The position numbers and the translations under genes are program-made. Shown in pieces: positions 10,578 to 36,628 of a DNA stretch of 64,000 bases. How positions within the stretch are numbered: the first letter of the stretch is position 1; each line of letters starts with the position of its first letter. This DNA comes from Salinigranum halophilum (GTDB lineage Archaea > Halobacteriota > Halobacteria > Halobacteriales > Haloferacaceae), in NCBI RefSeq assembly GCF_007004735.1, contig NZ_SSNL01000003.1, positions 744,001-808,000 of the forward strand, read 5' to 3'. Below the pieces are notes generated by a model. That model was not told the origin of the DNA. It searched no databases and was given only the letters and a program-made list of their open reading frames with translations.

Positions 10578-11236
10578 ACGGCCACCTCGCCTTCGCCCTC
10601 GGCGTCGGCCTGTCGCACCGCGCGGACGAACGCGTGGACGGCGCGGGCGTCTTTCGTCCCGCCGTCGCTCTCGACGCCGCTCGCGACGTCGACGCCGTAC
10701 GGCTCCGCGGTCGTGACCGCTTCGGCGACGTTGTCGGGGGTGAGTCCCCCCGCGAGGATGACGGGCGAGTCCAGTGCCGACGCGAGGTCGCGCGTGGCGT
10801 CCCAGTCGTGGGTCTCGCCGGTCCCGCCGGCCCCGTCGTCCGTCGTGGAGTCGACGAGGAGCGCGTCGGCGACGTCGTCGAGGTCGTGCGCCCGTTCGCC
10901 TTCCGTCGCGTCGACGGTGACGACGAGCTTCGTCGACGACTCCGCGCGGACGAACTGCAGTTCCTCGCGGTCGAAATCACAGTGCAACTGGAGGACGTCC
11001 GGCTGGATGGTCCGAGCGAGCGTGACCGCGTGGCTCGGCGACTCGGGCATGAGCACGAGGGTCGTCGTCACGAACGGGGGCGTCGCGGCGACGAGGTCGG
11101 CGGCCGTACAGGAGTCGACCTCGCGGGGGGTGTCGACAGGGACGTCGGCGATGAACCCGACCGCGTCCGCCCCGGCAGCGACGGTCGTTTCGAGGTCTTC
11201 CTCGGACGTCAGCCCGCAGACTTTCACGCGCGTCAT
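10574..11236 (-). CDS. trpF: Phosphoribosylanthranilate isomerase
   Basis: Catalyses the Amadori rearrangement of phosphoribosylanthranilate in tryptophan synthesis. 220 residues, a normal TIM-barrel size. It opens with TRVKVCGLTSEEDLE, where the Cys is the family's general base, and later has VLQLHCDF, a barrel-wall Asp in TVDATEG, and PVILAGGLTPDNV with the phosphate-binding loop and catalytic Asp. The 3' end overlaps trpE by four bases; trpD ends 6 bases upstream of its start. The order trpD-trpF-trpE-trpG is usual for haloarchaea, with trpCBA elsewhere. Confidence 0.95.
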   Translation of the reverse strand: MTRVKVCGLTSEEDLETTVAAGADAVGFIADVPVDTPREVDSCTAADLVAATPPFVTTTLVLMPESPSHAVTLARTIQPDVLQLHCDFDREELQFVRAESSTKLVVTVDATEGERAHDLDDVADALLVDSTTDDGAGGTGETHDWDATRDLASALDSPVILAGGLTPDNVAEAVTTAEPYGVDVASGVESDGGTKDARAVHAFVRAVRQADAEGEGEVAV

Positions 11237-11242
11237 CGAGGG

Positions 11243-12268: not shown

Positions 12269-12829
12269 TGGTAGTCACCGATGTATGTATTCGGGTTGTG
12301 ATGGACAAATCAGTACATCTGCTTAAGACTGTCGGGTTGACGGTTCGACCGTCGACGACACCGTGTCAGAATCTCGCCCCTCGAATACCGAAGTACATCG
12401 GCATCAGAGTTATTCGGTCTAGCAGCGTTCGTTCGAACGTCCCTCCGAGGGTGACCGTCGAAGGACTTCGACCCGGATGTCACCGTCTTGGGGACCAGTG
12501 GGGGGAGGGGATGTTTCGCCAGCCGGCTGGGGAGGGCGCGGTCGGTCCTCGTGGCTCACCCCGTCCGTTGGGAACGACGGCGTCAACGGCGATGGGGGTA
12601 GTCTGCCGTCGGCGCCGGACACGGCTCGGGCCGCGCTTCGGCCCGTTCACGGTCGTTCAGCGTGAATTCCCGCGGCCGACACTCCGTCCGTCCGACGTCA
12701 CACGCTGACGATGTGTTATCTACTTTGATACTCCCCACCGAGTGTTGATTACCTCCGGATGCTAGCTCGACGCATGCATCGTCCGCCAACTGGGTTCTCG
12801 TACACGGGGCGTCCGGCGTGGTCGTAAGC
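12269..12829. other. Intergenic region upstream of trp operon and pilin-like gene
   Basis: About 560 bases between divergent genes with no convincing coding frame; the long open frames are basic and Pro/Arg-rich, unlike haloarchaeal proteins. On the trp side a weak TATA-like CTTAAG lies near 12322-12327, with nearby GTACAT and TGTATGTA half-sites. Two perfect short palindromes are visible: CGTTCGAACG near 12430-12439 and GTCGAAG-GA-CTTCGAC at 12457-12472. Near 12717-12740 an AT-rich stretch could be the promoter of the plus-strand gene. Confidence 0.4.
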
Positions 12830-20211: not shown

Positions 20212-20395
20212 TTCAGATGAATTATATACGAACCGAGTGGCTTCCATCCAACAAGGACTTTTGCTTGGCTATGCTATACACGAATACTCATGACATACGT
20301 GTCGTCTCTGAAATCTACGAACGAGTATGTCTCTTCCGTCGTATCCCGTGAGGTTGGCGCCTCGTGTTCTTTGAGATGGATTGAACCGACCGTTT

Positions 20396-22243: not shown

Positions 22244-23233
22244 ATGGAAATCTTAGTGACCGGGGGAGCGGGGTTCATCGGTGGGCACCTCTCGGCACGA
22301 TTCATATCCGAAGGGTACAGTGTCGTCGCTTTGGACGAAATGCATCCGTACTACGACCTCGACATCAAGCGACACACAATTGACCAATGCGAGCGTCTCG
22401 CAGCCGAGACAGATGGTGCTTACGAGTTCGTTGAGGGTGACATTCGCGATTCCTCGCTGGTAAGCCAGCTTGTAAAGACAGCAGACTACGTCTATCATCA
22501 AGCTGGCCGAGCTGGCGTCCGAGATTCCGTTGCGGAGCCCCGTGTGTACAACGAGGTAAACGTCGATGGAACTCTAAATATTCTCGATTCCGCACGAGAG
22601 TGGGGGATTGAACGTATGGTGATGGCGTCGTCGTCGTCTGTTTACGGTGGACGCGAAGAGTACCTCCCGTTTGGCGAGACCGACCCCACTCTACCGGTGA
22701 GCCCGTACGGCGCGTCAAAATTGGCCGCAGAGCGATACCTTTGCTCGTATCATCAAGTATACGACCTTCCTACGGTCGCACTCCGCTACTTTACTGTCTA
22801 CGGTCCGCGGATGCGCCCCAACATGGCAATCTCGAACTTCGTTTCGCGATGCACAAATGGGGACCCACCAGTCGTTTATGGTGACGGAACTCAAACTCGT
22901 GACTTCACCTTCGTCGACGACATCGTAGATGCTAACGTCTCCTTACTCTCGACTGATTGCGCCGATGGGGAAGCGCTCAATATCGGATCTGCGGATAATA
23001 TCGCGATTCGTGACCTCGCGACCGAGATTCGTGACCAGATTGACCCAGAGCTTGAACTGGAATATGCCGACCGATACGCGGCTGACGCTGATCATACGCA
23101 TGCCGATATCACAAAAGCCGCCAAGCTCATTGGATACGACCCTAACCACACGATTTCGGAGGGCGTAACGAAATTCATCGAATGGTACCAGGCGAATCGA
23201 GACTGGTATGAGCCACTCGTGTTGTCGTCGTAA
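22244..23233 (+). CDS. NAD-dependent sugar-nucleotide epimerase/dehydratase
   Basis: An extended short-chain dehydrogenase of 329 residues. The NAD loop is VTGGAGFIGGHL; the catalytic Ser lies in ASSSSVYGG and the Tyr/Lys pair in YGASK; later PTVALRYFTVYGPRMRPNMAI, YGDGTQTRDFTFVDDIVDA and the C-terminal helix are typical of UDP-glucose 4-epimerase and UDP-glucuronate 4-epimerase relatives. It probably interconverts a UDP-sugar used by the nearby glycosyltransferases. Exact substrate cannot be assigned. It is followed by a 380-base gap, so it may be transcribed on its own. Confidence 0.88.
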   Translation: MEILVTGGAGFIGGHLSARFISEGYSVVALDEMHPYYDLDIKRHTIDQCERLAAETDGAYEFVEGDIRDSSLVSQLVKTADYVYHQAGRAGVRDSVAEPRVYNEVNVDGTLNILDSAREWGIERMVMASSSSVYGGREEYLPFGETDPTLPVSPYGASKLAAERYLCSYHQVYDLPTVALRYFTVYGPRMRPNMAISNFVSRCTNGDPPVVYGDGTQTRDFTFVDDIVDANVSLLSTDCADGEALNIGSADNIAIRDLATEIRDQIDPELELEYADRYAADADHTHADITKAAKLIGYDPNHTISEGVTKFIEWYQANRDWYEPLVLSS

Positions 23234-23613
23234 GACGACTGCTGTTGTTGAATTTGTCACGGTTGTTGATTCAGACAGCGTCGAGCGCGACCGTCTAGTT
23301 CTACGACACTCTCCACAATTTATAATAAAACGCGACGTCTTTGATGACGAGGAAAACTATCGATGTAGGAACACGGGAGAAAGTCGTCTTACTTGAAGCG
23401 GCCTCCAAATAGATTGAACCGTCTTATCCGCTGTAATTCGTCTATGAACAGCGGAGTCGATATCGTTCCCAGGATGTAATTTTGGCCTTCTGAATAGTAT
23501 CGTGTCCAGATGTCCGGTTAGAATCATATAATAAAATTTTGTAATCAGTCAGCTGATTCGAATTTCCAGCGACTAGAAAACGTATTTATGTGATTACTAT
23601 CTAGGTGAAGGAA
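23234..23613. other. AT-rich gap before the nonulosonic acid genes
   Basis: About 380 bases with no coding frame I would support. It is rich in A/T runs (AATTTATAATAAAA near 23318, ATATAATAAAATTTTG near 23527) and ends in the LegB promoter. Its low GC contrasts with the GC-rich genes that follow. Confidence 0.45.
23583..23590 (+). promoter_or_regulatory. TATA box for the legB operon
   Basis: TATTTATG is centred about 28 bases before the ATG at 23614. This implies a leaderless start there rather than at the GTG at 23605. Confidence 0.5.
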
Positions 23614-24606
23614 ATGCAACACGAGGAGCGCGTATTAGTGACAGGAGGGTGTGGCTCACTCGGTTCTGCTATCGTCGATGAGTTTCTTACGCGCCGCGAT
23701 GTCGAGCAGGTCTACGTCTTCGATCACGACGAACGGGGGCTGTTCAACGCGGAACAGGACCTCAAGGAGTACTCCGACCGTCTCACGTTCGTTCTCGGCG
23801 ACGTCCGTGATCAGGAGGCACTCGAACAGGCGTTCGCCGACGTCGACTGTGTGGTTCACGCGGCCGCTCTGAAACACGTCCCGGTCAGCGAACAGAACCC
23901 GTACGAGGCGATCAAGACGAACGCCCTCGCCACGCAGAACGTGATCGACGCGGCCCGAGCAACGGGAGTCACGCGCGTGCTCGGCGTGAGCACCGACAAG
24001 GCCGCACAGCCGACGTCGACGATGGGTGCGACGAAGATGCTCGCCGAGCGCCTGCTCATGGCGGCCGACCGCGAGACTGACGATGTCGTCTTCGGCGGCG
24101 TCCGACTCGGCAACGTCCTCGGCAGCAGCGGGTCCGTCGTCCGCATCTTCGAGAAACAGATCGCAGACGGCGGCCCGGTGACCGTGACCCACTCTGACAT
24201 GACTCGCTTCATGTTCACCCCGTCGGAAGCAGCCGAGTTCATCGTCGACTCACTCGATACGCTGTCCGGTGGTGAGATGCTCGTGCCGAAGATGGAGTCG
24301 GTTCGAATCATGGACCTCGCGGACGCGATGATAGAGACCACAGCGCCCGCTGAACCCGGTTCGGCAGACATCGATATCGACCTCATCGGCATGCGACCGG
24401 GAGAGCGACTCCACGAACGGTTGCTCACCGAGACGGAGGCACGAAGTGCGATCGAACTCGAGGACTCGTTCCTCATCCCACCGCAGTCCGAGGCCGGGAA
24501 CGAACTGGTCTCAGATGGCGGTGCAGAACTCGAGACCCCGTACCGCTCCGACCGCGCGACTCACCTCTCCCGTGACGAGGTCGCTGAACTGCTCTCCGGC
24601 CTGTAA
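23614..24606 (+). CDS. legB: Nucleotide-sugar 4,6-dehydratase, LegB/FlaA1-like
   Basis: An extended SDR of 330 residues; first dedicated step of nonulosonic acid synthesis, making a 4-keto-6-deoxy intermediate from UDP- or GDP-GlcNAc. The NAD loop is VTGGCGSLGSAI. The active site is GVSTDKAAQPTSTMGATK, where Met replaces the usual SDR Tyr, as in FlaA1/PseB-type dehydratases. MRPGERLHERLL near the C-terminus is also typical. It heads a tight run of genes (the next starts 6 bases later). Retaining versus inverting activity (LegB or PseB type) cannot be read directly; LegG and PIG-L neighbours favour the legionaminic route. Confidence 0.85.
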   Translation: MQHEERVLVTGGCGSLGSAIVDEFLTRRDVEQVYVFDHDERGLFNAEQDLKEYSDRLTFVLGDVRDQEALEQAFADVDCVVHAAALKHVPVSEQNPYEAIKTNALATQNVIDAARATGVTRVLGVSTDKAAQPTSTMGATKMLAERLLMAADRETDDVVFGGVRLGNVLGSSGSVVRIFEKQIADGGPVTVTHSDMTRFMFTPSEAAEFIVDSLDTLSGGEMLVPKMESVRIMDLADAMIETTAPAEPGSADIDIDLIGMRPGERLHERLLTETEARSAIELEDSFLIPPQSEAGNELVSDGGAELETPYRSDRATHLSRDEVAELLSGL

Positions 24607-24612
24607 CGTTCG

Positions 24613-25788
24613 ATGAGCGACAACATCTCTCCCCAGGTGAGCAACGGGACTCCGTCGCCGATCCCGCTCTTCGAGATCGACTGGGATCGAGCCGAGATAC
24701 AGAACGCCGTCGACTCCATCACCCGCGGTGGGTACTGGGCGAACGGACCGTACGTCGACGAGTTCGAGCACGGCCTGGAGTCGTCGCTCGGCGTCCAACA
24801 CGCCGTCGTCTGCAACTCCGGAACCACGGCACTCACCGCTGCGCTCGAAGCGTGTGGTATCGGCCACGGCGACGAGGTCATCGTGCCGTCGTTCACCTTC
24901 ATCTCGACGGCGAACGCCGTCGTCGCCACCGGTGCGACACCCGTGTTCGCCGACATCGAGCCCGAACGGTACGGTCTCGACCCCGACTCGGTCGAAGCCC
25001 GACTCACCGCCGACACCGCGGCGATCGTCCCCGTCCACTACGCGGGGCGGGCGTGTCGAATCCACGAGCTCGCGCGGCTCGTCGACGACCACGACCTCAC
25101 CCTCATCGAGGACGCCGCCGAGGCGCAAGGTGCGCGGGCGGCCGGTGAGTACGTGGGAACCATTGGCGACGTGGGAATGTTGAGCTTCTGTCAGAACAAG
25201 ATCGTCGCGACCGGTGAGGGCGGTGCAGTCGTCACGGACGACGACGAACTCGCCGAGCGCGTCGGCCTGCTCCGGTCGCACGGCCGCGTCTCGGGGGACT
25301 ACTTCGGCTCGACCGGCGGCGGCGAGTACACCACGCTCGGGTCGAACTACCGGATGCCCGACATCGTGGCCGCGCTCGGCGTCGCCCAGCTCGACCGGAT
25401 CGAAGACCTCGTCGCTCGACGTCGTGCCGTCGCCCACGCGTACACCGAGCGTCTCGCGGCAGTCGACGGCGTGACGCCGCCGGCCGACGGCGCGGGTGAC
25501 GAACGCCACGTCTACCAGCTGTACACGGTCCGGTTCGCCCCGTGGGTCGACCGCGACGCGGTCGCAGAACGGCTGGCCGAACACGACATCGCCTCGAAGG
25601 TGTATTTCGACCCGGCCCACCTCTCGACGTACTACCGAACCGAACACGACTGTGAGCCGGGGACGCTGCCGGTGACTGAGGACCTCTCCTCGCGGGTGCT
25701 GTCGCTTCCGATGCATCCGAACCTCTCCGAACCGGCGGTCGAGCGCGTCGTGACCACGCTGTCGGCCGCGCTCGACGAACAGCGGTGA
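24613..25788 (+). CDS. legC: PLP aminotransferase, LegC-like (DegT/DnrJ/EryC1)
   Basis: A sugar aminotransferase of 391 residues that would add an amino group at C4 of the keto sugar from the dehydratase. Cofactor motifs: CNSGTTALTAALEA (phosphate contact), LIEDAAEAQGA (Asp to pyridoxal), and the Schiff-base Lys in FCQNKIVATGEGGAVV. NYRMPDIVAALGVAQLDRI is also typical. It begins 6 bases after legB and is presumably co-transcribed. A 108-base gap separates it from the next gene. Confidence 0.9.
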   Translation: MSDNISPQVSNGTPSPIPLFEIDWDRAEIQNAVDSITRGGYWANGPYVDEFEHGLESSLGVQHAVVCNSGTTALTAALEACGIGHGDEVIVPSFTFISTANAVVATGATPVFADIEPERYGLDPDSVEARLTADTAAIVPVHYAGRACRIHELARLVDDHDLTLIEDAAEAQGARAAGEYVGTIGDVGMLSFCQNKIVATGEGGAVVTDDDELAERVGLLRSHGRVSGDYFGSTGGGEYTTLGSNYRMPDIVAALGVAQLDRIEDLVARRRAVAHAYTERLAAVDGVTPPADGAGDERHVYQLYTVRFAPWVDRDAVAERLAEHDIASKVYFDPAHLSTYYRTEHDCEPGTLPVTEDLSSRVLSLPMHPNLSEPAVERVVTTLSAALDEQR

Positions 25789-25896
25789 CGGTGGCTGAAG
25801 GGCCACTCGACGGTCGCGCGCGTCGCTGCGGTGCCCAGGCTGACGTTTCGATACGCTGTCGGAACGACTAACTGACAGAGCGGCCGTGGTTCTCAC

Positions 25897-26976
25897 ATGA
25901 CTGAAACCGGTGTCGGCGAGGCCGACAGCGTCGGGACCCTCGACGGTTTCCTCCCGAGTAACGGAGCGTACTTCATCGCGGAAGCGGGCGTCAACCACGA
26001 CGGCGATCTGGCGCAGGCTCGTGAACTCGTCGATGCAGCGGCCGACGCCGGTGCCGATGCGGTCAAGTTCCAGACGTTCGCTGCGGACCGACTGGTCTCG
26101 CCGGACGCGCCCAAAGCCGAGTACCAAGAGGAGACCGACGAGGCCGACTCGCAGTACGAGATGCTCCGGCGACTCGAACTCCCGCCGACGGCACACGACG
26201 AACTCATCGAGTACTGCGCCGACCGCGGTATCCAGTTCCTCTCGACGCCGTTCGACCCCGAGAGCGCCGACCTGCTTGACGATTTGGACCTGCCCGCAAT
26301 CAAACTCGGGTCGGGCGAACTCGACAACGTCCCGCTGTTGCGACACGTCGCCGGGTTCGGCCGACCGCTGCTCATCAGCACGGGCATGGGAACGCTCGAA
26401 GAGGTGCAGAGCGCACTCGACACCGTCCGCGAGGCGGGGTCGCCACCGGTCGCGCTGTTTCACTGTACGTCGGCGTATCCGGCCCCGCTCGAAGACGTGA
26501 ACCTCCGCGCGATGCAGACGATGGACGAGGCGTTCGACGTCCCGGTGGGATACTCCGACCACACGACGGCGGTCGAAACGCCCGCACTGGCAGTCGCGGC
26601 CGGCGCGCGCCTCGTCGAGAAACACTTCACGCTCGACAAGACGCTTCCGGGCCCCGACCACGCCGCGTCGCTCGAACCGGACGAACTCGCGCGGGCCGTG
26701 TCGCTTGTCCGGGACGCGACAACCGCGCTCGGTCGTCCGGAGAAACGGCCGACAGAGACGGAGACCGCGAACCGCGACGTCATCCGCAAGAGCCTCCACG
26801 CGACGACCACGATCGAGCGCGGCGAGCACTTCGACCGCTCGAACGTCTCGGTCGTGCGGCCGGCCGACGGTCTCGCACCGGGCGAACTGGACGCGCTCGT
26901 CGGACACCGCACGGCGACGACGCTCGAAGCCGGCGACCCGGTCACCGCCGACACCGTCGAGGGGTGGGACCGGTGA
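25897..26976 (+). CDS. legI: Nonulosonic acid synthase, LegI/NeuB family
   Basis: Condenses phosphoenolpyruvate with a six-carbon diamino sugar to make the nine-carbon acid. 359 residues. N-terminal NeuB barrel: AEAGVNHDGDLAQARELVDA, DAVKFQTF, FLSTPFD, IKLGSGELDN, STGMGTLEEV, LFHCTSAYPAPLEDVNLRAM, VGYSDHTT and KHFTLDK. C-terminal SAF (antifreeze-like) domain: KSLHATTTIERGEHF through LDALVGHR. All are standard for the family. The stop overlaps the GTG of the next gene. The substrate epimer (leg versus pse versus sialic type) is inferred from neighbours. Confidence 0.92.
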   Translation: MTETGVGEADSVGTLDGFLPSNGAYFIAEAGVNHDGDLAQARELVDAAADAGADAVKFQTFAADRLVSPDAPKAEYQEETDEADSQYEMLRRLELPPTAHDELIEYCADRGIQFLSTPFDPESADLLDDLDLPAIKLGSGELDNVPLLRHVAGFGRPLLISTGMGTLEEVQSALDTVREAGSPPVALFHCTSAYPAPLEDVNLRAMQTMDEAFDVPVGYSDHTTAVETPALAVAAGARLVEKHFTLDKTLPGPDHAASLEPDELARAVSLVRDATTALGRPEKRPTETETANRDVIRKSLHATTTIERGEHFDRSNVSVVRPADGLAPGELDALVGHRTATTLEAGDPVTADTVEGWDR

Positions 26977-27647
26977 GCGACCGGACGGTCCTCGCGGTCG
27001 GCGCGCACCCCGACGACGAGGTACTCGGTCCGGGAGGGACGCTCGCCCGACACGCCGACGCGGGCGACGAGGTGCACCTCCTCATCGTCACCGAGGGGAC
27101 GACGGCGCAGTACGACGACGAGTCGCTCATCGAGACGAAACGCCGGGAGGCACGGGCGTGTGCCGAGACGCTCGCGGCGACCGACGTCCACTTCGGTGAC
27201 CTCCCCGACATGCGTCTCGACGACGTACCGCACGTAGAGGTCAACGCCGTCATCGAGTCCGTCGTGGACGAGGTCGCCCCGGACATCGTGTACACGCACG
27301 CGCGAAACGAGGTGAATCGGGACCACGTCGCCGTCCACGAGTCGACGGTCGTCGCGACGCGGCCCGGTTCGGGCGTCACGCGAGTGTTGGCGTACGAGAC
27401 ACCGTCCTCGACGGAGTGGACCGGTGGGTCGACGCCGCAGTTCAACCCTTCGGCGTACGTCGACGTGAGCGGCGTCCTCGACAGGAAGATCGAGGCGTTC
27501 GGCGCGTACGAGACCGAGACACGGTCGTACCCACATCCGCGCTCCGCCGAGGCGCTCCGCGCGCGCGCACAGACTCGCGGGACGGAAGCCGGGTTCGCGG
27601 CCGCGGAGGCGTTCGAGGTCGTCACTGAACGGCTGGAGGTGCCCTAA
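26973..27647 (+). CDS. PIG-L family N-deacetylase
   Basis: A zinc-dependent deacetylase of 224 residues; family members remove acetyl from GlcNAc-type sugars. The metal motif AHPDDEVLG is at the N-terminus, and YTHARNEVNRDHVAVHEST supplies the further His ligands. The GTG at 26973 overlaps the synthase stop (GTGA); its TAA shares one base with the next ATG, so the block is translationally coupled. Placed between synthase and epimerase genes, it probably acts on a pathway intermediate or on the finished sugar, exposing an amine for formylation by the formyltransferase downstream. That role is inference. Confidence 0.86.
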   Translation: MSDRTVLAVGAHPDDEVLGPGGTLARHADAGDEVHLLIVTEGTTAQYDDESLIETKRREARACAETLAATDVHFGDLPDMRLDDVPHVEVNAVIESVVDEVAPDIVYTHARNEVNRDHVAVHESTVVATRPGSGVTRVLAYETPSSTEWTGGSTPQFNPSAYVDVSGVLDRKIEAFGAYETETRSYPHPRSAEALRARAQTRGTEAGFAAAEAFEVVTERLEVP

Positions 27648-28810
27648 TGGCACCACCACGACGTATCGCCGTCGTCACGGGCACCCGCGCCGAGTACGGC
27701 CTTCTCGAATCGTCGATGCGGGGTATCGACGCGCACCCCGAACTCGAACTGCTCACGGTCGTCACCGGGATGCACCTCTCGCCACGTCACGGGATGACCG
27801 TCGACGAGGTCGAAGCGGACGGCTTCACCGTCGACGAGCGCGTCCACATGCAGGTCGACGGTGACTCGGGGTTGACGATGGCGAAGTCACTCGGCCTCGG
27901 CCTCTCGGGACTGGCCGAGTCGTTCGGTCGGCTCGATCCCGACGTCGTGCTCGTCCTCGGCGACCGCGACGAGGCGTTCGCCGCGGGTGTCGCGGCCGCG
28001 CACATGAACATTCCCATCGCGCACGTCCACGGCGGTGACTCGATGGACGGCGCCATCATCGACGACAGTATTCGACACGCGCTGACGAAGTTCGCTCACC
28101 TGCACTTCCCGGTCTCCGAGCAGAGCGCCGCGCGCATCGAACAACTCGGTGAAGAACCGTGGCGAGTCACGACGGTGGGCGCACCCGGGCTCGACGACAT
28201 CCTGGCGGGAGAGTACACGTCTCCGGAGGCGGTCCGAGAGCGATACGGACTCGACACCGCGCGACCGCTGGCACTCGTCGTCCAGCACCCCGTCACGACG
28301 GAGGCCGAGGCAGCGGGCGACCAGATGCGGGCCACGCTCGACGCGCTCGAGACGTTCGACGAACTCCAGGTGGTGCTCGTGTATCCGAACTCGGATGCCG
28401 GTGGCCAACGCGCCATCGAGGCCATCGAGTCGCACCCGCTCGGCGCGCGTGCGATGACCACGCGGAGCCTCCCCCGACGTGACTTTCTGGGTGTGATGGC
28501 CGCCGCGGACGTGATGGTCGGCAACTCCAGCAGCGGGATCATCGAAGCGCCGTCGTTCGGCCTCCCGGTCGTCGACGTCGGGCCGCGTCAGTCAGGCCGA
28601 CAGCGGGCGGAGAACGTCGTCTCGGTGAGTCACGAGGCGGACGCTGTACGAGAGGCCGTCGAACGCTGCCTGACCGACGACGCGCTGCGTCAGCGCGCGG
28701 CGACGTGTGAGAGCCCCTACGACTACGGTGGGGCTGGCGAGCGCATCGTCGACCGCCTCGCCACGGTCGACCTCGACGAGCGTCTCGTGCGGAAGCGCCT
28801 GACGTTCTGA
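27647..28810 (+). CDS. legG: Hydrolysing UDP/GDP-sugar 2-epimerase, LegG/NeuC type
   Basis: 387 residues. It inverts C2 and removes the nucleotide, giving the free mannose-type sugar used by LegI. GT-B fold landmarks: RIAVVTGTRAEYGLL at the start, VLVLGDRDEAFAAG, IPIAHVHGGDSMDG with the catalytic-site His/Gly region, LTKFAHLHFPVSE, and NSSSGIIEAPSFGLPVVDVGPRQSGR. The sequence is NeuC/LegG-like rather than WecB-like (HGGD...DDSIRHA). It follows the deacetylase with a one-base overlap and ends the coupled block; then comes an AT-rich gap before the formyltransferase. Confidence 0.9.
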   Translation: MAPPRRIAVVTGTRAEYGLLESSMRGIDAHPELELLTVVTGMHLSPRHGMTVDEVEADGFTVDERVHMQVDGDSGLTMAKSLGLGLSGLAESFGRLDPDVVLVLGDRDEAFAAGVAAAHMNIPIAHVHGGDSMDGAIIDDSIRHALTKFAHLHFPVSEQSAARIEQLGEEPWRVTTVGAPGLDDILAGEYTSPEAVRERYGLDTARPLALVVQHPVTTEAEAAGDQMRATLDALETFDELQVVLVYPNSDAGGQRAIEAIESHPLGARAMTTRSLPRRDFLGVMAAADVMVGNSSSGIIEAPSFGLPVVDVGPRQSGRQRAENVVSVSHEADAVREAVERCLTDDALRQRAATCESPYDYGGAGERIVDRLATVDLDERLVRKRLTF

Positions 28811-28930
28811 TTTCGGTCGGCGGCAGACTGCTCGCACGATTTTATATTTTGAATAATAAGTATATTTATCGCGGGGGTTCGGTCAGGCTGACACGCCCAA
28901 GGAGTCCCCTCGGCAACAGGCGAGCAACAC

Positions 28931-28936
28931 TATACC
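28931..28936 (+). promoter_or_regulatory. TATA box of the formyltransferase gene
   Basis: TATACC is centred 27-28 bases before the ATG at 28961. The gap 28811-28960 also contains a TTTTATATTTTG stretch near 28840. The gene may therefore have its own start in addition to read-through from the leg block. Confidence 0.5.
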
Positions 28937-28960
28937 ACTGCACTACGCACTCTTCCAGGT

Positions 28961-29902
28961 ATGCGAACGGTCTTCGTGAGCCACAACGACCTCGGGCTGG
29001 CCTGTCTGGAGGAACTCGATCGAGCGGGTGCGGACCTCCAGGCAGTCCTCACTCGACCGGAACTGGACCGAATCGCCGACCAGACGGACTTCGCGGGGTT
29101 CGCCGCGGAGCGTGACGTCGACCTTCACCGCGTCGAGTCGCTCAACACCGACGAGTGGGTCGACCGCCTCACCGACTACGACCCTGACCTCCTGTTCGTC
29201 GTCGGCTGGTCGCGACTCGTCGAAGCGCGGATTCTCGATATCCCCTCCGTCGCCGCGTTCGGGATGCACCCTGCGCCACTCCCCCGCGGACGAGGCCGCG
29301 CCCCCATCGCGTGGAGTCTCATCAAGGGGCTGGACGAGACGGCACTCACGATGTTCCACCTCGTCGAGGCGGCAGACGCGGGCGATATCGCGGGACAGGT
29401 GTCGATTCCGATCGACGAGCGCGACGACGCAGCCTCGCTGTACGAGAAGGTCGTCGATGCCGGTCGAACGCTCGTCCGGGAGGTGTATCCGCGACTCGCC
29501 GCGTGCGAGGTTCCACGGACGCCGCAGGACGAAGACGAGGCGACGTGGTGGCCGCGGCGGCGGCCGGAACACGGACGGATCGACTGGACGAAGACACCGC
29601 GAGAGATCTACGACTGGATTCGCGGGCAGTCACACCCGTACCCCGGAGCGTTCAGCTTCCTCGACGGCCAGCGGGTGACGATCTGGGCGGCGAACCCGCC
29701 ATCGGATGAACCGACGTTCGTCAGACCCGGCACGATCCGCTATGTCGATGGAGACGCACTCGGGGTGGGTGCGTGGGAAGGCGTCGTCGAACTCACTCGC
29801 ATCGAAATCGAGAGGAGCGAACGGCCGGCGAGCGCGCTCGTGACGGAATGCGGTTTCGACGTCGGCGATCGGTTCGAACACGACCTCACAGAGAAGACCT
29901 GA
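28961..29902 (+). CDS. Sugar N-formyltransferase (formyl-H4F dependent family), atypical active site
   Basis: 313 residues, with an N-terminal formyltransferase fold (about 1-180) and a C-terminal barrel-like domain (GRIDWTKTPREIYDWIR, HPYPGAFSF). In the family, an Asn-x-His motif and a later Asp transfer formyl from formyltetrahydrofolate to an amine. Here the motif reads FGMHPAPLPRGRGRAP: His103 and Asp139 (AADAGDI) are present, but the Asn position is Gly101. That substitution may mark a subfamily rather than loss of activity. It is placed right after the leg genes. Expected role: N-formylation of an amino sugar on the way to the nonulosonic acid. Confidence 0.82.
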   Translation: MRTVFVSHNDLGLACLEELDRAGADLQAVLTRPELDRIADQTDFAGFAAERDVDLHRVESLNTDEWVDRLTDYDPDLLFVVGWSRLVEARILDIPSVAAFGMHPAPLPRGRGRAPIAWSLIKGLDETALTMFHLVEAADAGDIAGQVSIPIDERDDAASLYEKVVDAGRTLVREVYPRLAACEVPRTPQDEDEATWWPRRRPEHGRIDWTKTPREIYDWIRGQSHPYPGAFSFLDGQRVTIWAANPPSDEPTFVRPGTIRYVDGDALGVGAWEGVVELTRIEIERSERPASALVTECGFDVGDRFEHDLTEKT

Positions 29903-29922
29903 CCGTAACTTTGTATCGGCTA

Positions 29923-30438
29923 TCAGGTATCCGGTTCCTGTTGGTACACTTCGACTCCCCCGGGGTATCCCTTCGGGTTTCGATTACCAACAAGTCTCCC
30001 ACCTTTTGGTGTGGTGTAGAACGCATAGAGGAGGTCGTTTATTATATAGTACCGAACCCGCTGTGCGTCGGTGCCGCTCGGGTCAGGGTACGCACGATCT
30101 CCGCCCGTGGCTCTTAGAACCTTATCGCGAGTGTCGATATCAAGAGCACCGAGCGGCTTCCCAGTCTCCCGTCTACTCGTCCGCTGTACGACCCGTAGCG
30201 CGGATTTTAGATTGGCAAGTCGCTCACCATCTGAACGGTACCGTCCGACAACGTACGCTTTGATAAACTCTCGTGAGGGTTCGACGACTGACGGATACAA
30301 CACCTCCGCTAGCTGAACAAGCGTGTCGATATCCGTATCTGAAAGTTCTTCGTCCAGCGTGTCGGAACTAAGTACCATCGATGCGACAATTCCCCCGCTG
30401 GCGAGCGCGAGTAAGGCGTCTCGCCTCGTCAACTCCAT
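29923..30438 (-). CDS. Gluconate 2-dehydrogenase subunit 3 family, Tat-exported small subunit
   Basis: 171 residues from the ATG at 30438. A twin-arginine-like start (MELTRRDALLALASGGIVA) is followed by a small helical domain with LVQLAEVLYP, IKAYVVGRY, YIINDLLYAFYTTPKGG and GNRNPKGYPGG, the pattern of the small subunit of membrane sugar dehydrogenases. In those enzymes the small subunit carries the signal and brings the GMC large subunit outside. The only GMC gene in the window is at 20396-22117, on the other strand and about 8 kb away, with the leg block between. It converges with the formyltransferase gene. Confidence 0.82.
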   Translation of the reverse strand: MELTRRDALLALASGGIVASMVLSSDTLDEELSDTDIDTLVQLAEVLYPSVVEPSREFIKAYVVGRYRSDGERLANLKSALRVVQRTSRRETGKPLGALDIDTRDKVLRATGGDRAYPDPSGTDAQRVRYYIINDLLYAFYTTPKGGRLVGNRNPKGYPGGVEVYQQEPDT

Positions 30439-30544
30439 ACTTGCTAGTAACATAGTTTTGATTTAGTAAATAAGCGTTGTTAGCCAGTGCGTACCCGGAC
30501 CACCGATGAGGAGTGAGTCTGTGCGTGGTAAGGACGCTGTTAAG

Positions 30545-31363
30545 CTAGTTAGAAGAATCCAGTTCGAATCGAAGTGCAGTAAACAGTGCAACGAGTGCGA
30601 TAAGCCCCAGAAGGAACACTGCGTACTGCCCCTGGGGGCCACCGAGCCTGACGACACCCTCTACGGAATCGCCGAGACGCCGGCCGAACAGTTCAATGGG
30701 GACTGTATAGGCTGCTTGATATAAAAAGCTCCCGACATATCCGCCGATGATCCATAGCGAGAGGATGCCCAATACGAGGAGCCGCTCGCTCATCGAGATT
30801 GCACGCGGAGGTCTCAACTCTCCCCACCGCCTCCCGATATCAGCGACTGCCCACGCGACTGGGGCCCCGAGTAATGCGAAAACCAGATTTGCAGTGAACG
30901 ACTGGCTGACCACGATTGAGAACTGCGCGATATTAAACGCGTCAGCAAGCCAGGCAGTGGCTGCAGCGAGTGTAAGCGTCGAGACGAGTGCGACGAACCC
31001 GTAATGGGTGAGCCAGCGATACCAGACTAAGTTCTCGTGGTCGGAAACCCACAGTTGACTGCCCACGACTGCTGCGATGAACACGGCGAGCCCGCTTGCA
31101 ACACCACCGGACCAGTCACCAGCGATTATTCCAGACAAAAGTACACCAAACGAGAGTCCCCATCGCGCGTGAGCTCCAATGGCTACCACTCCGAGGGTGA
31201 CGAGGAACGCGAACGGTTGGATGAAGACACTTAGTACAGCAGCAAGCGCCCACGAGACTACCGTGTCGAATAGAAGTGCGCTTCCTACTGTCACGGCGAT
31301 CGTGATGATTCCAGTCGGAAATAATTCGACTGAAAATCTCTCGCGGATGTCTGTGCTACCCAT
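30545..31363 (-). CDS. Polytopic membrane protein, unknown function
   Basis: 272 residues from the ATG at 31363; about eight to nine hydrophobic segments with short loops, starting IITIAVTVGSALLF and ending YAVFLLGLIALVALFTAL. A large polar loop (SDHENLVWYRWLTHYG) lies near residue 110. I recognise no transporter or transferase motif. It could be a substrate-binding-type membrane component or a small flippase-like protein, but neither is supported. It lies between the small dehydrogenase subunit and the NodB-type deacetylase on the same strand. Confidence 0.7.
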   Translation of the reverse strand: MGSTDIRERFSVELFPTGIITIAVTVGSALLFDTVVSWALAAVLSVFIQPFAFLVTLGVVAIGAHARWGLSFGVLLSGIIAGDWSGGVASGLAVFIAAVVGSQLWVSDHENLVWYRWLTHYGFVALVSTLTLAAATAWLADAFNIAQFSIVVSQSFTANLVFALLGAPVAWAVADIGRRWGELRPPRAISMSERLLVLGILSLWIIGGYVGSFLYQAAYTVPIELFGRRLGDSVEGVVRLGGPQGQYAVFLLGLIALVALFTALRFELDSSN

Positions 31364-31566
31364 GAGCACAGCCCCCGTGGGTGCACATAGCCGAGACACT
31401 CATTTCATTCATCCATCTCTAGATGAGGCATGGTTCGTCGGTAATTAAATTATTCTGAATCGAACGTATTTGAGCTCGCTAGTGGGACAGGGAGATCGCG
31501 TTCCCGACTGAGCCTCATCTCCAACATATCGTGGCAACTTGTCATACCTTGATTGGACAGAGGGGG

Positions 31567-32517
31567 CTAAGGAAGTTCGAAGGTCGCACTACCGTAGTCG
31601 AACTCGTTACAGTCACGTCGGGGGAGAGAGAACATCTCTGCTTCTCGATGACGTCCGGCAAGTGTACCTGATTCTGTTGTGAACGCGTACTCACATCCTG
31701 CATAGGCGAGTGCACCGACTGTCGTATCGGTGAACGTATCCTCTCCACCGTATGGATACGCAAACGTCGTCACGGGTTGAGAACCTACCAGATTATCCAG
31801 CCAGGTAACCGACGATTCGATTTCTGACCGCTGTCTCTTCTCGTCAAGCCGTGCGAGCACTGGATGGGTAACCGAGTGTGCCCCGAGAAGCATTCCAGCA
31901 TCCACCATCTCTAGTAGTTGTGTCTCTGAGAGATAGTATTCTGACACAGTCGGTGGTTCGTAGTCTGTGAGTCTACCCTCCAGTCTATCGAGCACGCCCT
32001 GAACGTCTTCGGGTGCCACGACGAAGTTTAACAGCCGCTTGAACTCGCTCACAGTAGCGCTTGAAGATTGTTCGTCGTACGCGTCTGTGACGCCTCTCGA
32101 CTCGCCGGATATCGATGGCTCCGTATCCAAGACAGACTCCAGTTCATAGTGAAGTTCATTCGCGGGAAGCGATCCGACAAGCGCGTGAATCCGATGAACT
32201 GGGAGGATGCGGTCGTTCACGAACGGGCCAGTCGGCACGAAAAACAACCCCCACAGATTACGTCGCTGAAGTTCCGGAAGGACCCACTCGTGATGGTCGA
32301 ACAACGCGTCATCGAACGTCAAGACGATGCCGTCGGGTGTGTCTCGGTTACCGCGGAGGAAGTTGATGAACGAATCGCGATCGACGAACCCATACTCTTC
32401 TTCGAAGTAGCTGAGTTGTCGTTTAAAATCGTCGAGGGAGAGGTGATAGTAACCGTGCGGAGGGCGATTTGGTGTCGGCCGCACGTAGTGGTACATCACC
32501 GCGTTCATCTCGGACAT
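31567..32517 (-). CDS. Polysaccharide deacetylase (NodB-like)
   Basis: A metal-dependent N- or O-deacetylase of about 316 residues from the ATG at 32517 (MSEMNAVMYHYV; the in-frame ATG at 32541 adds eight residues). NodB motif 1, VLTFDDALFDHHE, supplies the catalytic Asp pair; motif 2, GAHSVTHPVLARL, supplies the metal His pair; FAYPYGG is motif 3. No signal peptide is visible, so it should act in the cytoplasm, unlike cell-wall deacetylases. It follows the second formyltransferase by 42 bases, making a deacetylase/formyltransferase pair like the PIG-L/formyltransferase pair on the other strand. Confidence 0.86.
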   Translation of the reverse strand: MSEMNAVMYHYVRPTPNRPPHGYYHLSLDDFKRQLSYFEEEYGFVDRDSFINFLRGNRDTPDGIVLTFDDALFDHHEWVLPELQRRNLWGLFFVPTGPFVNDRILPVHRIHALVGSLPANELHYELESVLDTEPSISGESRGVTDAYDEQSSSATVSEFKRLLNFVVAPEDVQGVLDRLEGRLTDYEPPTVSEYYLSETQLLEMVDAGMLLGAHSVTHPVLARLDEKRQRSEIESSVTWLDNLVGSQPVTTFAYPYGGEDTFTDTTVGALAYAGCEYAFTTESGTLAGRHREAEMFSLPRRDCNEFDYGSATFELP

Positions 32518-32559
32518 TTTCGTCCCGTGCTGGTAGAGCAATGGTCTTGAGAGTTATCT

Positions 32560-33276
32560 TCAGTAAGATGACAGTGTTCCGTACGTGTCTTCGGCCTCGT
32601 CTTCACCGTCGGCTGCAGTTCTGATATCGATATCTACGTAGTACTGCTCACCGTTAATCTCGATGCGCGCGTTGTCGAACGGGGGGAACGTGAGCGCGCG
32701 CAGGCGATTAAGGAAATCGACGGCACGCACTTGTTCGTCGGGGTCGAGCTCACACAGCTCGATGAACTCCTGTTTCCGATAATAGTTCTCTCCAGCCTCG
32801 TCCTGCTCTCTCGATTCGACGGTGCCCGCCTCGACTTCCGGCCACACTTCACAAAAGAGTTCGACACATGCTCGCTCGACTCGCTGATAGACGTCCTTGC
32901 CGGTGTCGGCGAACGACGTCTCCACTGCTCGTGTCGCGATGACGTCTCCGGTGTCGATACCTTCGTCCATGTAGTGAACTGTTGCACCGGCAGGGAGGTC
33001 GTCGACGATACTCCAGACGTTTGGGTTGAACCCTCGTGTCGCAGGGAGAACCCCTGGATGCACATTGAGACAGCCCTTCTCGGGAATCGAAAGGACCTCC
33101 GGCGGGACGACATGAGTGAACCCGGCCGCGACGATGAGATCCGGCCCGATTGTCGAGATGAGGTCGAGCTGATTGCTCTCCGTCAGCATCGCCCGCACAT
33201 TAACTCCGTCGCGGTCGCAGAGCCAGTCGTAGATGTCGCGGCCGTAGTTGTTTGTGCCGAGAAAGACGACGTCCAT
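32560..33276 (-). CDS. Sugar N-formyltransferase, canonical active site
   Basis: 238 residues. The formyltransferase core is present: MDVVFLGTNNYGRDIY (N-terminal fold), DLIVAAGFTHVVP, NVHPGVLPATRGFNPN with the catalytic Asn71 and His73, and MDEGIDTGDVIATR with Asp108. The C-terminus has a short domain with INGEQYYVDIDI. Unlike the formyltransferase at 28961-29902 the Asn is intact. It lies between the Gfo/Idh gene and the NodB-like deacetylase on the minus strand. Probable job: N-formylation of a second amine, but the acceptor is unknown. Confidence 0.84.
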   Translation of the reverse strand: MDVVFLGTNNYGRDIYDWLCDRDGVNVRAMLTESNQLDLISTIGPDLIVAAGFTHVVPPEVLSIPEKGCLNVHPGVLPATRGFNPNVWSIVDDLPAGATVHYMDEGIDTGDVIATRAVETSFADTGKDVYQRVERACVELFCEVWPEVEAGTVESREQDEAGENYYRKQEFIELCELDPDEQVRAVDFLNRLRALTFPPFDNARIEINGEQYYVDIDIRTAADGEDEAEDTYGTLSSY

Positions 33277-33320
33277 GTAGGCTGTATTGTCTCCCGGATA
33301 ATCGGTCTACTGGTCGCACC

Positions 33321-34250
33321 TCAGATTTCGATACTATCGAGTTTGACGTGGTCACCCGTCTCTATCGCTCGCTGTCCCGCGATAGCGACGCGCATCGTCT
33401 TCAGGGTTTCATCTGGGTGAATCGCTGGCTCGCCCGTCTCGACCTGTGTGATAAACTCGGAGAGTAACCGTCGAAACGCACGGAAGTTGTCTCGAATCGG
33501 ATGACGTGTTGTCTTCTCGGTCCCATAGAAGTCCACATCGAATGCCATCGCCGCGTCACCGAGCGTGTCGATTTGCACGAGCGGGCCATCTGTTTCGATA
33601 GCGACCGAACCATGGGGAGCATCGGCCGCCCGGACAGCGACAGGGTCTGCATCAATAACGTTGAAGATCGCATCGAGCATGTGGACGCTGTACCGGTCCC
33701 AGTCTTTGATCACCGTCCCACGAACGAGTGTCATCTCCCCGTAGTCGTCGATGTTCGCCCGTGGGGTGTCGAGCTCACGCGCATAGCGCATCCCAGAACA
33801 CGACATGAGTCGACCGGCTTCGAGGTGGGGGCGCATCCACGCGAGTTCGTCGGTGTCGAGCGACAGGGGTTTGTCGACGAACGTCGGGACCCCCGCCTCG
33901 AGGAAGGGTCGGGCGAATCTGGCGTGTGTCTCGTAGTCGTCGCGAGCGATGACGACTGCATCGACGTCGTCGATCATGTCGGTGAACTCGTCGGGCTGTT
34001 CGGGAATGTCGGCCGCAGCACAGAGTCGCTCCGTCTCCGCATCGTCCTGCGTCCACGCGTGGGTGACTTGGACGCCGTCGAGTCCGATTTCGGAGGGGTG
34101 TTTCTCACGGACGTAGTCGTAGATGACGTCCCACTCGGACTCTGCGAGACCGGCGTCGTCGTAGCCGTTGACGATCGACGAGAACGAGTACGGATGCCCG
34201 TTACCCGCGCTAACGCCGATCATCCCGAGCGCGAGTTGGTCGTCTACCAC
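33321..34250 (-). CDS. Gfo/Idh/MocA family oxidoreductase
   Basis: 309 residues from a GTG at 34250, whose first bases overlap the stop of the upstream SDR gene (7-base overlap), a strong cue for this start over the ATG at 34295. The N-terminal Rossmann part reads LALGMIGVSAGNGHPYSF with the usual glycine loop changed. The family motif PTFVDKPLSLD (catalytic Lys region) and a later SVHMLDAIFN His are visible. Similar oxidoreductases sit in bacterial legionaminic acid loci, but its substrate here is unknown. It lies between the SDR and the second formyltransferase. Confidence 0.78.
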   Translation of the reverse strand: MVDDQLALGMIGVSAGNGHPYSFSSIVNGYDDAGLAESEWDVIYDYVREKHPSEIGLDGVQVTHAWTQDDAETERLCAAADIPEQPDEFTDMIDDVDAVVIARDDYETHARFARPFLEAGVPTFVDKPLSLDTDELAWMRPHLEAGRLMSCSGMRYARELDTPRANIDDYGEMTLVRGTVIKDWDRYSVHMLDAIFNVIDADPVAVRAADAPHGSVAIETDGPLVQIDTLGDAAMAFDVDFYGTEKTTRHPIRDNFRAFRRLLSEFITQVETGEPAIHPDETLKTMRVAIAGQRAIETGDHVKLDSIEI

Positions 34251-35056
34251 GCCGTCCACCCGCCGTCGAGGACGAGGTTCTGCCCGGTCATCCACTTGCT
34301 GGCGTCCGACGCGAGGTAGACGATGATTCCCTTCATGTCCGTCTCGTCACCCATCCGTCCAAGCGGCGTCCGGTGTTCGTACTCGGGGACGAACACCTCG
34401 GTGTAGTCGTCGATGTCTTCCATCTCCTCGTTGTAGAACCCGCCCGGACTGATCGAGTTGACGCGAATCCCGTCCGCAGCGAGGTAGGATGCGAGCCACC
34501 GGGTGAACTGGATGACGCCGGCCTTCGCCGCGCCATACGTCGGCGGGTTGTTGATGTCCGCATCTCCGTAGACACGGTGGTCGGGCGCGACGACACCGTA
34601 GTGGCTCCCGATGTTGACGATGGTTCCGTGGTCGCTCTCACGGATGTACGGGAGTGCCTTCTGTGAGCAGAGGAATGTCTGCGTGACGACTCCCTCGAGA
34701 GTGCGTTCCCACTCATCGACAGTGAGGTCCTCGAACGCGACGCCGTACCCGTGGGCATCGTACGCGTTGTTCACGAGGATGTCGATTGCACCGAATTCGT
34801 CGACCACTGTCTCGACCATCCGCTCGACGGCGTCCTCGTCGGTCACGTCTACCTCGACGGCCATCGCCTCGCCGTGTTCTGCGGAGAGCTCTTCGGCCTT
34901 CTCGACGCACTTCTCGTACGTTCGTGCGGCGACGACGACGTTCGCGCCTGCCTCGGCGAGCGCGTCGCACATCTGTGACCCGAGTTGGCCATACCCTCCT
35001 GTGACGATTGCGACCCGTCCCTCGAGGTCGAACAGGTCCCAGACAGATTCAGTCAT
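34244..35056 (-). CDS. Short-chain dehydrogenase/reductase
   Basis: 270 residues from the ATG at 35056, overlapping the stop of the CMP transferase gene by 8 bases. NAD(P) loop VTGGYGQLGSQM, NNAYDAHG (NNAG equivalent), catalytic Ser in NIGSHYG, Tyr/Lys in TYGAAKAG, and SPGG with a late DGGWTAW. It resembles the SDR at 35855-36628, suggesting an old duplication. Its position next to LegF is like PtmA-type genes of bacterial nonulosonic loci, but I cannot assign the reaction. Confidence 0.85.
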   Translation of the reverse strand: MTESVWDLFDLEGRVAIVTGGYGQLGSQMCDALAEAGANVVVAARTYEKCVEKAEELSAEHGEAMAVEVDVTDEDAVERMVETVVDEFGAIDILVNNAYDAHGYGVAFEDLTVDEWERTLEGVVTQTFLCSQKALPYIRESDHGTIVNIGSHYGVVAPDHRVYGDADINNPPTYGAAKAGVIQFTRWLASYLAADGIRVNSISPGGFYNEEMEDIDDYTEVFVPEYEHRTPLGRMGDETDMKGIIVYLASDASKWMTGQNLVLDGGWTAW

Positions 35057-35801
35057 GTCCGGGTGTGACTCCTGCATCGGGGTCTTTCTTTCGTTCGTGG
35101 ATGCCCTCCTCGACGAGCACCTTCGCGAACGTGAGGTCGAGCTCGGTGTCGATGTCGACCGAGCGCTCACGCGGCATCAACACTGCCCCGGGCTCGTCGA
35201 AGAGGAGTGACGTCCCGTCGTCGGGAAGCGCGTCGATCTCGAATGCGTAGACCGCTCCCGTGAGTTCGTACGCAGTCGGCTGCTGCTGCCGAGGGAGCCA
35301 AGGGTCGGCGTTCTCGTGATACGGTGTCGGGACACCGTCGTCGATATCCCAGTAGCGGTGCGGACTCAGCTCTGCTTCCGTGAAGGTCGCGACGGAGTCG
35401 TGTGTCTGCGCCTCGTCGACGAGGAGGTCTAAGCAGGCCTCGACGTCTTCGACAGCTCGCAGGGGACTCGTCGGTTCGAGCATGACGAGATACGCGGCGT
35501 CCTCGCCTTCCTCGCGCAGCGTTTCGACGAGGTGACGGAGCGCATCGATCACGAGTGCATCGTCCGTCGCGAGTTCTGGTGGACGATCGACGACCTCTGC
35601 GCCGAACTCGCGGGCTGTGGACGCGATCTCTGCGTCGTCCGTGGTCACGAGTGTTCTGTCCACGTACTCGGTTTCCCGTGCGACGTCGATCGGCCACGCC
35701 ACGAGTGGTTTTCCACCGAGGTCGCGGAGGTTCTTTCGCGGAACCGTCGTGCTTCCCCCTCGGGCGGGAATCACCGCGACAACTCGTTCGTCACGTATCA
35801 T
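35049..35801 (-). CDS. legF: CMP-nonulosonic acid cytidylyltransferase (LegF/NeuA family)
   Basis: Activates the nine-carbon acid with CTP, giving the CMP-sugar donor. 250 residues. Nucleotide motif VIPARGGSTTVPRKNLRDL, then LVAWPIDVA, TDDAEIA, MLEPTSPLR, LTGAVYAF and SVDIDTELDL, the metal-binding end. The family is clear; whether it prefers legionaminic, pseudaminic or sialic acid rests on the neighbouring leg-type genes on the other strand. It is separated from them by about 5 kb and lies in a minus-strand operon with two SDRs, an oxidoreductase and a formyltransferase. Confidence 0.9.
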   Translation of the reverse strand: MIRDERVVAVIPARGGSTTVPRKNLRDLGGKPLVAWPIDVARETEYVDRTLVTTDDAEIASTAREFGAEVVDRPPELATDDALVIDALRHLVETLREEGEDAAYLVMLEPTSPLRAVEDVEACLDLLVDEAQTHDSVATFTEAELSPHRYWDIDDGVPTPYHENADPWLPRQQQPTAYELTGAVYAFEIDALPDDGTSLLFDEPGAVLMPRERSVDIDTELDLTFAKVLVEEGIHERKKDPDAGVTPGHD

Positions 35802-35854
35802 GAACTGGTTCGATTGAATCCGTACGGAGGGTTAATCGTTCGGACTCTCGAAGG

Positions 35855-36628
35855 TCACGAGATAGTCCAGCCACCGTCGACGACGAGGTTGTGCCCAGTG
35901 ATGTACTCCGCTGCGTCGGATGCCAGGAACACCACTGCACTGGCGATGTCTTCGGGCGTCGCCATCCGACCGAGAGGTGTACGGCGTTCGTATGCCTCGA
36001 CGAACGTCTGATCTTGCTCGTCGAACACACCACCCGGGCTCACCGCGTTGACGCGAACGCCTTTCGGGCCGAGATAAGACGCGAGGTAGCGGGTTAGATT
36101 GATAATCGCACCTTTGATGGCCGCATACTCGACAGGGCTGGTCATCCCTGTCCCATCGTATACCGTGAAGTCAGGTGCTTGGACGCCATAAATCGAGCCG
36201 AAATTTATTATATTCCCACTCCCTTGTTTGGCCATCTGTTTTGTTGCATAGAATGTCGGAATGTAACACCCTGCGAGATGATTATTGACGTTCTCTCGCC
36301 AGTCGTCTATATCGACCTGCTCATACCTTCGACCGTACTGGTCGTTCCGGGGATACGCAGCGTTGACGAGTATATCGAGTCCATCGAACTCGTCCACCGT
36401 GGTCTCGATCAGTGCCTCGACGTCCGTTTCTGATGTCACATCGGCCTCGACGGCTCGAGCATCGCTGAGGTCTTCTGCGACAGCGACCGCTCGCCGCTGG
36501 TCGACATCTGCAACGACGACATGTCCACCCTGCTCGTCAAGCGCGGTACAAATCGCTGACCCAAGTAGTCCCGCACCACCGGTGACCACCACCGATTTAT
36601 TTTCAATCCCGAATCGGTTTGTCATCAA
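35855..36628 (-). CDS. Short-chain dehydrogenase/reductase, first gene of the minus-strand set
   Basis: 257 residues. The NAD(P) loop is VTGGAGLLGSAI; the NAG-like motif is NAAYPRND; catalytic Ser in NFGSIYG, and Tyr/Lys in VEYAAIKGA; late SPGGVFDEQ and DGGWTIS. Its tail and loop spacing match the SDR at 34244-35056. An ATG one codon downstream is an alternative start. It is 53 bases ahead of LegF on the same strand, with an AT-rich promoter region upstream. Composition is lower in GC than LegF. Confidence 0.85.
   Translation of the reverse strand: MMTNRFGIENKSVVVTGGAGLLGSAICTALDEQGGHVVVADVDQRRAVAVAEDLSDARAVEADVTSETDVEALIETTVDEFDGLDILVNAAYPRNDQYGRRYEQVDIDDWRENVNNHLAGCYIPTFYATKQMAKQGSGNIINFGSIYGVQAPDFTVYDGTGMTSPVEYAAIKGAIINLTRYLASYLGPKGVRVNAVSPGGVFDEQDQTFVEAYERRTPLGRMATPEDIASAVVFLASDAAEYITGHNLVVDGGWTIS

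Follow-up and report, generated by a model that had tools for sequence, protein, structure and literature searches.

On balance we favour the view that a gene cluster in a 64,000-nucleotide stretch of the Salinigranum halophilum genome (the window; contig NZ_SSNL01000003.1, positions 744,001 to 808,000) would make a cytidine monophosphate (CMP)-activated nonulosonic acid of the legionaminic acid (Leg) type, with formyl groups on N-5 and on N-7 that would be installed by two distinct mechanisms. The most economical prediction from the gene content is the 5,7-di-N-formyl product, with a residue mass of 288.10 Da; redox tailoring at C-8 is possible. An initial annotation of this DNA had proposed a di-N-formyl sugar and had taken it to be undescribed; the sugar survives as a prediction. 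In the literature searched, mostly without subscription papers, we found no prior description of a di-N-formyl nonulosonate or of acetyl-to-formyl exchange by a PIG-L deacetylase and a formyltransferase.

The core of the Leg pathway is complete in the window. The dehydratase, C-4 aminotransferase, NeuC-type 2-epimerase, NeuB-type synthase and CMP-synthetase named in the initial annotation are all present and are matched by family models. The plus strand carries LegB (23605..24606), a UDP-N-acetylglucosamine (UDP-GlcNAc) 4,6-dehydratase of PseB/CapD type (PF02719, 316.9 bits), LegC (24613..25788), a C-4 aminotransferase and putative source of a free 4-amine (PF01041, 391 bits), LegI (25897..26976), a NeuB-family legionaminic acid synthase (TIGR03569, 433.7 bits against a cut-off of 399.65), and LegG (27647..28810), a NeuC-family hydrolysing 2-epimerase (TIGR03568, 408.8 bits against 235.9). 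The CMP-nonulosonate synthetase LegF (35049..35801; PF02348) is on the minus strand and scores 121 bits with the PseF model. LegB gives 280.8 bits with the PseB model, under the equivalog cut-off; LegC matches the PseC model (299 bits) better than the LegC model (260 bits), both under their equivalog cut-offs. In a tree of 35 synthases the Leg and pseudaminic acid (Pse) enzymes split cleanly (100/100), and the window LegI falls on the Leg side. This position, together with the NeuC-type LegG, is why we assign the pathway to the Leg type. Two deacetylase-family genes and two formyltransferases accompany the core, one of each kind per strand as first noted: PIG-L (PF02585) with FmT1 on the plus strand and NodB (PF01522) with FmT2 on the minus strand, both formyltransferases matching PF00551.

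The predicted PIG-L/LmbE de-N-acetylase (26964..27647, plus strand) overlaps LegI and abuts or overlaps LegG. Its catalytic motifs HPDDE and NRDH are intact and are invariant in eight relatives. FmT1 (28961..29902, plus strand) is a predicted ArnA/Fmt-like sugar N-formyltransferase (PF00551 and PF02911), whose best match in the PDB is ArnA (161.8 bits); its predicted structure is too weak around the active site for interpretation. For comparison we used the haloarchaea, where a LegI-like synthase occurs in 65 of 341 genomes; the stretches around most of these were read, and the genes at each locus were called using profiles that drew on the window and on the loci. PIG-L is accompanied by FmT1 in 10 of 11 clusters (p = 6e-7, exact test; such tests ignore the relatedness of clusters and are indicative only). 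It combines alike with FmT2, NeuD or PseH clusters. The window FmT1 is 57–64% identical to the FmT1 of other Leg clusters, including L043 and L046, which are of the type found in Halorubrum sp. PV6.

PV6 provides the anchor for this pair. Its published report confirms the N-formylated legionaminic acid mentioned in the initial annotation: the glycan carries 5-N-formyl-legionaminic acid, and the last sugar adds 302.1 Da (PMC6137143). The mass step implies one formyl and one acetyl group on this sugar. LegB, LegC, LegG, LegI, LegF and an FmT1-type formyltransferase are common to PV6 and the window. In the text consulted, gene 1050 is a possible formyltransferase and 1051 is neuD; 1052 is not described there and a deacetylase is not mentioned (PMC6137143). 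The lengths given there from reverse transcription PCR for legC, legB, legF, legG, the formyltransferase and neuD are 1139, 1025, 722, 1163, 953 and 629 bp (PMC6137143). The corresponding L046 genes measure 1140, 1026, 723, 1164, 954 and 630, each the PV6 length plus one, in the same order and orientation. After neuD, L046 has PIG-L (10839-11507) and then legI, the latter of 1059 against 1053 in PV6. HrrPV6_1052 is thus, by synteny, probably PIG-L, the deacetylase of the PV6 pathway and a further gene in common with the window. The NeuD of L046 exceeds its model cut-off (TIGR03570, 194.5 bits against 160.8), and we infer that the N-4 acetyltransferase (LegH) of PV6 is NeuD and not nucleotidyltransferase 1014. 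The PV6 product, with one formyl and one acetyl, fits PIG-L and FmT1 plus NeuD. The window likewise has an FmT1-type formyltransferase and PIG-L beside LegI and LegG. The reading of PIG-L and FmT1 as a 5-N acetyl-to-formyl exchange module is, from these gene comparisons, well supported. The LegI of PV6 accepted a di-N-acetyl sugar (PMC6137143), and the exchange may accordingly come after LegI.

The same pairing is found in bacteria. Among 69 bacterial loci chosen by PIG-L similarity, 46 have a NeuB homologue, 36 have a formyltransferase within 1.5 kb and 29 have both, fractions that describe this selection only. At one such locus (L108, Planctomycetaceae), PIG-L is accompanied by an FmT2-like and an FmT1-like gene. 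On a Sulfitobacter plasmid (L188; NZ_CP085169.1, 7867-11342) an aminotransferase, a formyltransferase, PIG-L and a sugar transferase lie in a row with no NeuB in the annotated stretch, and perhaps make an N-formyl bacillosamine-type sugar. The FmT1 of the haloarchaeon Halorussus caseinilyticus (L186; NZ_CP119810.1:353195-354139) bears the annotation of a methionyl-tRNA formyltransferase, which is probably wrong. A second glycan cluster in the genome under study (L189; G000:C1:781000-800999) contains an FmT1-like formyltransferase (12118-13026) with a G-R-H motif, and no PIG-L was recognised beside it.

At N-7 the window and the PV6 type part company. L046 has NeuD, which would place acetyl at N-7, and is without FmT2, NodB and the oxidoreductases Gfo/Idh, SDR1 and SDR2; the window is the reverse. 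No NeuD/PglD or PseH gene is present in the window cluster, in agreement with the initial annotation, which saw no LegH there and pointed to the rest of the genome as the place where one might be found. Across the entire genome, which is 4.2 Mb long and 100% complete, there is no PglD_N domain. A genome-wide search for NeuD returned partial hexapeptide matches and no full-length NeuD, and that for PseH a single GNAT at 48 bits against a cut-off of 93.1 bits. Generic hexapeptide and GNAT acetyltransferases are encoded elsewhere in the genome, and one of them might furnish an ordinary di-N-acetyl legionaminic acid, the formyltransferases then being unrelated to the pathway. Given the lack of a PglD_N domain or full-length NeuD, and formyltransferases embedded in a conserved cluster, we give this explanation very little credence.

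FmT2 (32560..33276, minus strand) is a predicted VioF/PseJ-like sugar N-formyltransferase. It keeps the N-x-H...D triad and has the PF00551 domain followed by the PF18216 dimerisation domain; its PDB relatives include ‘formyltransferase PseJ’, VioF and related 4-amino-sugar formyltransferases. It shares the fold family and triad with the PseJ/VioF enzymes, PF18216 being as in the VioF type and a short N-terminal part aligning with PseJ. Its predicted substrate is different, namely the D-gluco product of LegC and not a Pse precursor or a dTDP sugar. Most likely FmT2 adds formyl to the free amine that LegC generates, thereby replacing LegH without any deacetylation. This position is assigned because FmT2 is exclusive with LegH and PseH. 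Of the haloarchaeal clusters, 35 combine LegC with LegG or PseG; 15 of these carry FmT2, nine NeuD and five PseH, and no cluster has two of the three (chance about 1.7e-5, exact test). Within Pse operons, FmT2 holds the slot of a PseH-like GNAT between PseG and PseI (L063 compared with L058 and L080). The window FmT2 groups in the formyltransferase tree with the FmT2s of other Leg clusters (98/98), beside those of the Pse loci L057, L070 and L073. The LegI tree requires at least five changes of the FmT2 label and at least seven for PIG-L; FmT2/PIG-L content is not shared even between sister clusters (L041 and L046, L073 and L058). These genes have therefore been swapped repeatedly and do not reflect one inherited arrangement.

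FmT2 and NodB could alternatively act on another amino sugar of the same glycan, leaving the nonulosonate only 5-N-formylated, as in PV6. Glycosyltransferases and further glycan genes are indeed present farther along the window, and at the locus L184 a NodB–formyltransferase pair has no recognised nonulosonate gene within about 10 kb. We regard this as quite improbable, since FmT2 of the same clade takes the place of PseH inside Pse operons, the window FmT2 shares an operon with LegF, and the cluster has no other N-4 acyl source.

The predicted NodB-family (CE4) hydrolase (31567..32541, minus strand) lies directly downstream of FmT2 on the same strand and has no apparent signal peptide. The TFDD and HSVTH motifs are intact, and the D-H-H metal site (D78, H222, H226) is invariant; with the PF01522 domain, this site places NodB in the CE4 polysaccharide deacetylase family. 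The predicted model has a pLDDT (predicted local distance difference test) of 81, and the nearest folds among the best 50 matches are PplD, PgaB and IcaB. The initial annotation read NodB with FmT2 as exchanging acetyl for formyl just as PIG-L would with FmT1, which makes two such modules. The PIG-L/FmT1 half of that proposal is supported by the synteny that ties it to the PV6 product; the NodB/FmT2 half we now consider unlikely. It draws on the adjacency and common direction of the two genes, on nearest folds that are GlcNAc de-N-acetylases, and on the finding that all close NodB orthologues are in clusters with a formyltransferase, a divergent one overlapping NodB by 4 bp in L184:9344-11199 and L185:8699-11114 (G023, G086). 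L185 has a CMP-transferase behind NodB, NeuC-NeuA-NeuB nearby and no LegB/LegC in the stretch read, so there a formyl group could be added only after deacetylation; its NodB–formyltransferase set is possibly an N-formyl neuraminic acid module. However, FmT2 is distant in the tree from the formyltransferases of L184 and L086/L185, and no deacetylation is required at the FmT2 nitrogen because LegC already leaves a free amine. NodB is also missing from 10 of the 15 FmT2 clusters and present in all five Gfo/Idh clusters, and it tracks Gfo/Idh (p = 1.8e-5) over FmT2 (p = 0.06, exact tests). The co-occurrence rules out NodB as an obligatory partner of FmT2. A weak NodB match is found in L049 (132 bits with the window protein as query).

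ArnD is itself a NodB-family enzyme. By analogy, NodB may be an ArnD-like deformylase, removing a transient formyl group placed by FmT2 and leaving a free amine on the mature sugar. In the aminoarabinose pathway ArnA formylates and ArnD deformylates (PMC12650200). In both systems a formyltransferase goes together with a hydrolase of the NodB family, and the lack of an apparent signal peptide and the company that close NodB orthologues keep with formyltransferases accord with such a role. We judge it improbable nonetheless. No ArnD model is found in the NodB matches to NCBIfam up to E = 5, nor does ArnD appear in the list of 50 fold matches, the presence of ArnD in either library being unchecked; the nearest folds are de-N-acetylases, no ArnC/ArnT-type genes were seen, and PV6-type clusters retain the formyl group. 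We know of no report of a nonulosonate in a deformylated state.

Three oxidoreductase genes complete the minus-strand half: a Gfo/Idh/MocA oxidoreductase (33321..34295; PF01408, the real start probably further in), the short-chain dehydrogenase SDR1 (34244..35170; PF13561, real start about 35059-35077) and the PtmA-like short-chain dehydrogenase SDR2 (35855..36628; NF006619, 272.8 against 255; FlagModPtmA, 183.8 bits). SDR1 orthologues are found in L036 and L037, and L038 and L042 hold a different short-chain dehydrogenase. The Acinetobacter modules ElaABC, AciABCD/E and EpaAB belong to 8-epi-legionaminic, acinetaminic and 8-epi-pseudaminic acid, respectively, and there too a CMP-transferase is grouped with oxidoreductases that include an adh_short_C2 short-chain dehydrogenase (PMC9676051, PMC12053666). 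This likeness is one of gene grouping; by analogy SDR2, SDR1 and Gfo/Idh probably add a redox modification, possibly at C-8.

The Gfo/Idh marker occurs in only five of 391 haloarchaeal genomes, from four genera, all five with the full gene set. That set (FmT1, FmT2, PIG-L, NodB, Gfo/Idh and SDR2) recurs in genomes G156, G159, G259 and G301, and also on the Halorussus caseinilyticus plasmid NZ_CP119810.1. The search of related genomes for conserved co-occurrence of both pairs, as the initial annotation advised, thus succeeded, and because the complete set recurs in this way its assembly is beyond chance. Among the Pse clusters, L057 and L073 carry FmT2, FmT1 and PIG-L; L070 does likewise, on a short contig with no PseG seen. 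From the gene content of L057 and L073, the predicted di-formyl combination recurs on another backbone, and all three loci are candidates for di-N-formyl pseudaminic acid.

In the pathway that we propose, LegB and LegC would convert UDP-GlcNAc into a 4-amino-4,6-dideoxy sugar, whose free 4-amine FmT2 would formylate in the stead of LegH; this nitrogen would become N-7. LegG would then release the sugar and epimerise C-2. PIG-L would strip the original GlcNAc acetyl and FmT1 add formyl, before or after condensation by LegI, at the nitrogen that becomes N-5. LegI would condense the sugar with phosphoenolpyruvate and LegF activate the product with CMP. SDR2, SDR1 and Gfo/Idh would probably add a redox modification, likened to C-8 epimerisation, and NodB would be an extra cytoplasmic hydrolase.

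Several observations weigh against this scheme. It assigns NodB no firm role, and the coupling of NodB to a different formyltransferase in L184 and L185 favours an exchange or deformylase role there. FmT1 has Gly where ArnA-type enzymes have the catalytic Asn, with the His and Asp retained. The substitution, again with His and Asp kept, is common to all FmT1 relatives; in most of the bacterial formyltransferases that partner PIG-L, the Asn of the N-x-H motif is likewise absent; FmT2 retains it. The cluster L040 carries PIG-L and NeuD and has no FmT1 within the 20 kb examined. Under the cut-offs used, six of the 35 clusters lack FmT2, NeuD and PseH alike and so have no N-4 acylating gene of these types, and a non-specific acetyltransferase elsewhere in the genome could serve as LegH. 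The assignment of PV6_1052 as PIG-L comes from synteny and gene lengths, and the substrates, order of steps and final structure proposed here are all read from genes.

The two halves of the cluster are separated by two unrelated minus-strand genes (29923-30453 and 30545-31399). Upstream, a GalE-type NAD-dependent sugar epimerase (22244..23233, plus strand; PF01370/PF16363) is of uncertain pathway membership; such a gene is also found near LegI in L041 and L047. A GMC oxidoreductase (20381-22117) and a weak match to gluconate 2-dehydrogenase subunit 3 (29923-30453) flank the plus-strand half, looking as if they had been split by its insertion.

More tentatively, and with less than even confidence, we suggest that the sugar is a new nonulosonic acid, either 5,7-di-N-formyl Leg altered at C-8 or one with an amine unmasked by NodB after transient formylation, and that it belongs to a haloarchaeal N-acyl code of interchangeable cassettes. 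In this joint reading FmT2, NeuD or PseH would act at N-7, PIG-L with FmT1 would be present or absent at N-5, and di-formyl combinations would arise in both Leg and Pse clusters. Only in PV6 has an archaeal pathway to legionaminic acid been examined by experiment; PIG-L is a candidate for its missing deacetylase, and the identity of its LegH is likely to need correction. Bacterial nonulosonate clusters commonly contain a PIG-L/formyltransferase pair, and the formyltransferase there is easily mistaken for the methionyl-tRNA enzyme. The N-acyl diversity of sialic-acid-like sugars would become predictable from gene content, with residues of 316.13 (two acetyls), 302.11 (one of each) or 288.10 Da. 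Nonulosonates are the terminal sugars of S-layer glycans and of a virus spike, so the acyl groups that they carry could influence how virus and host recognise each other.

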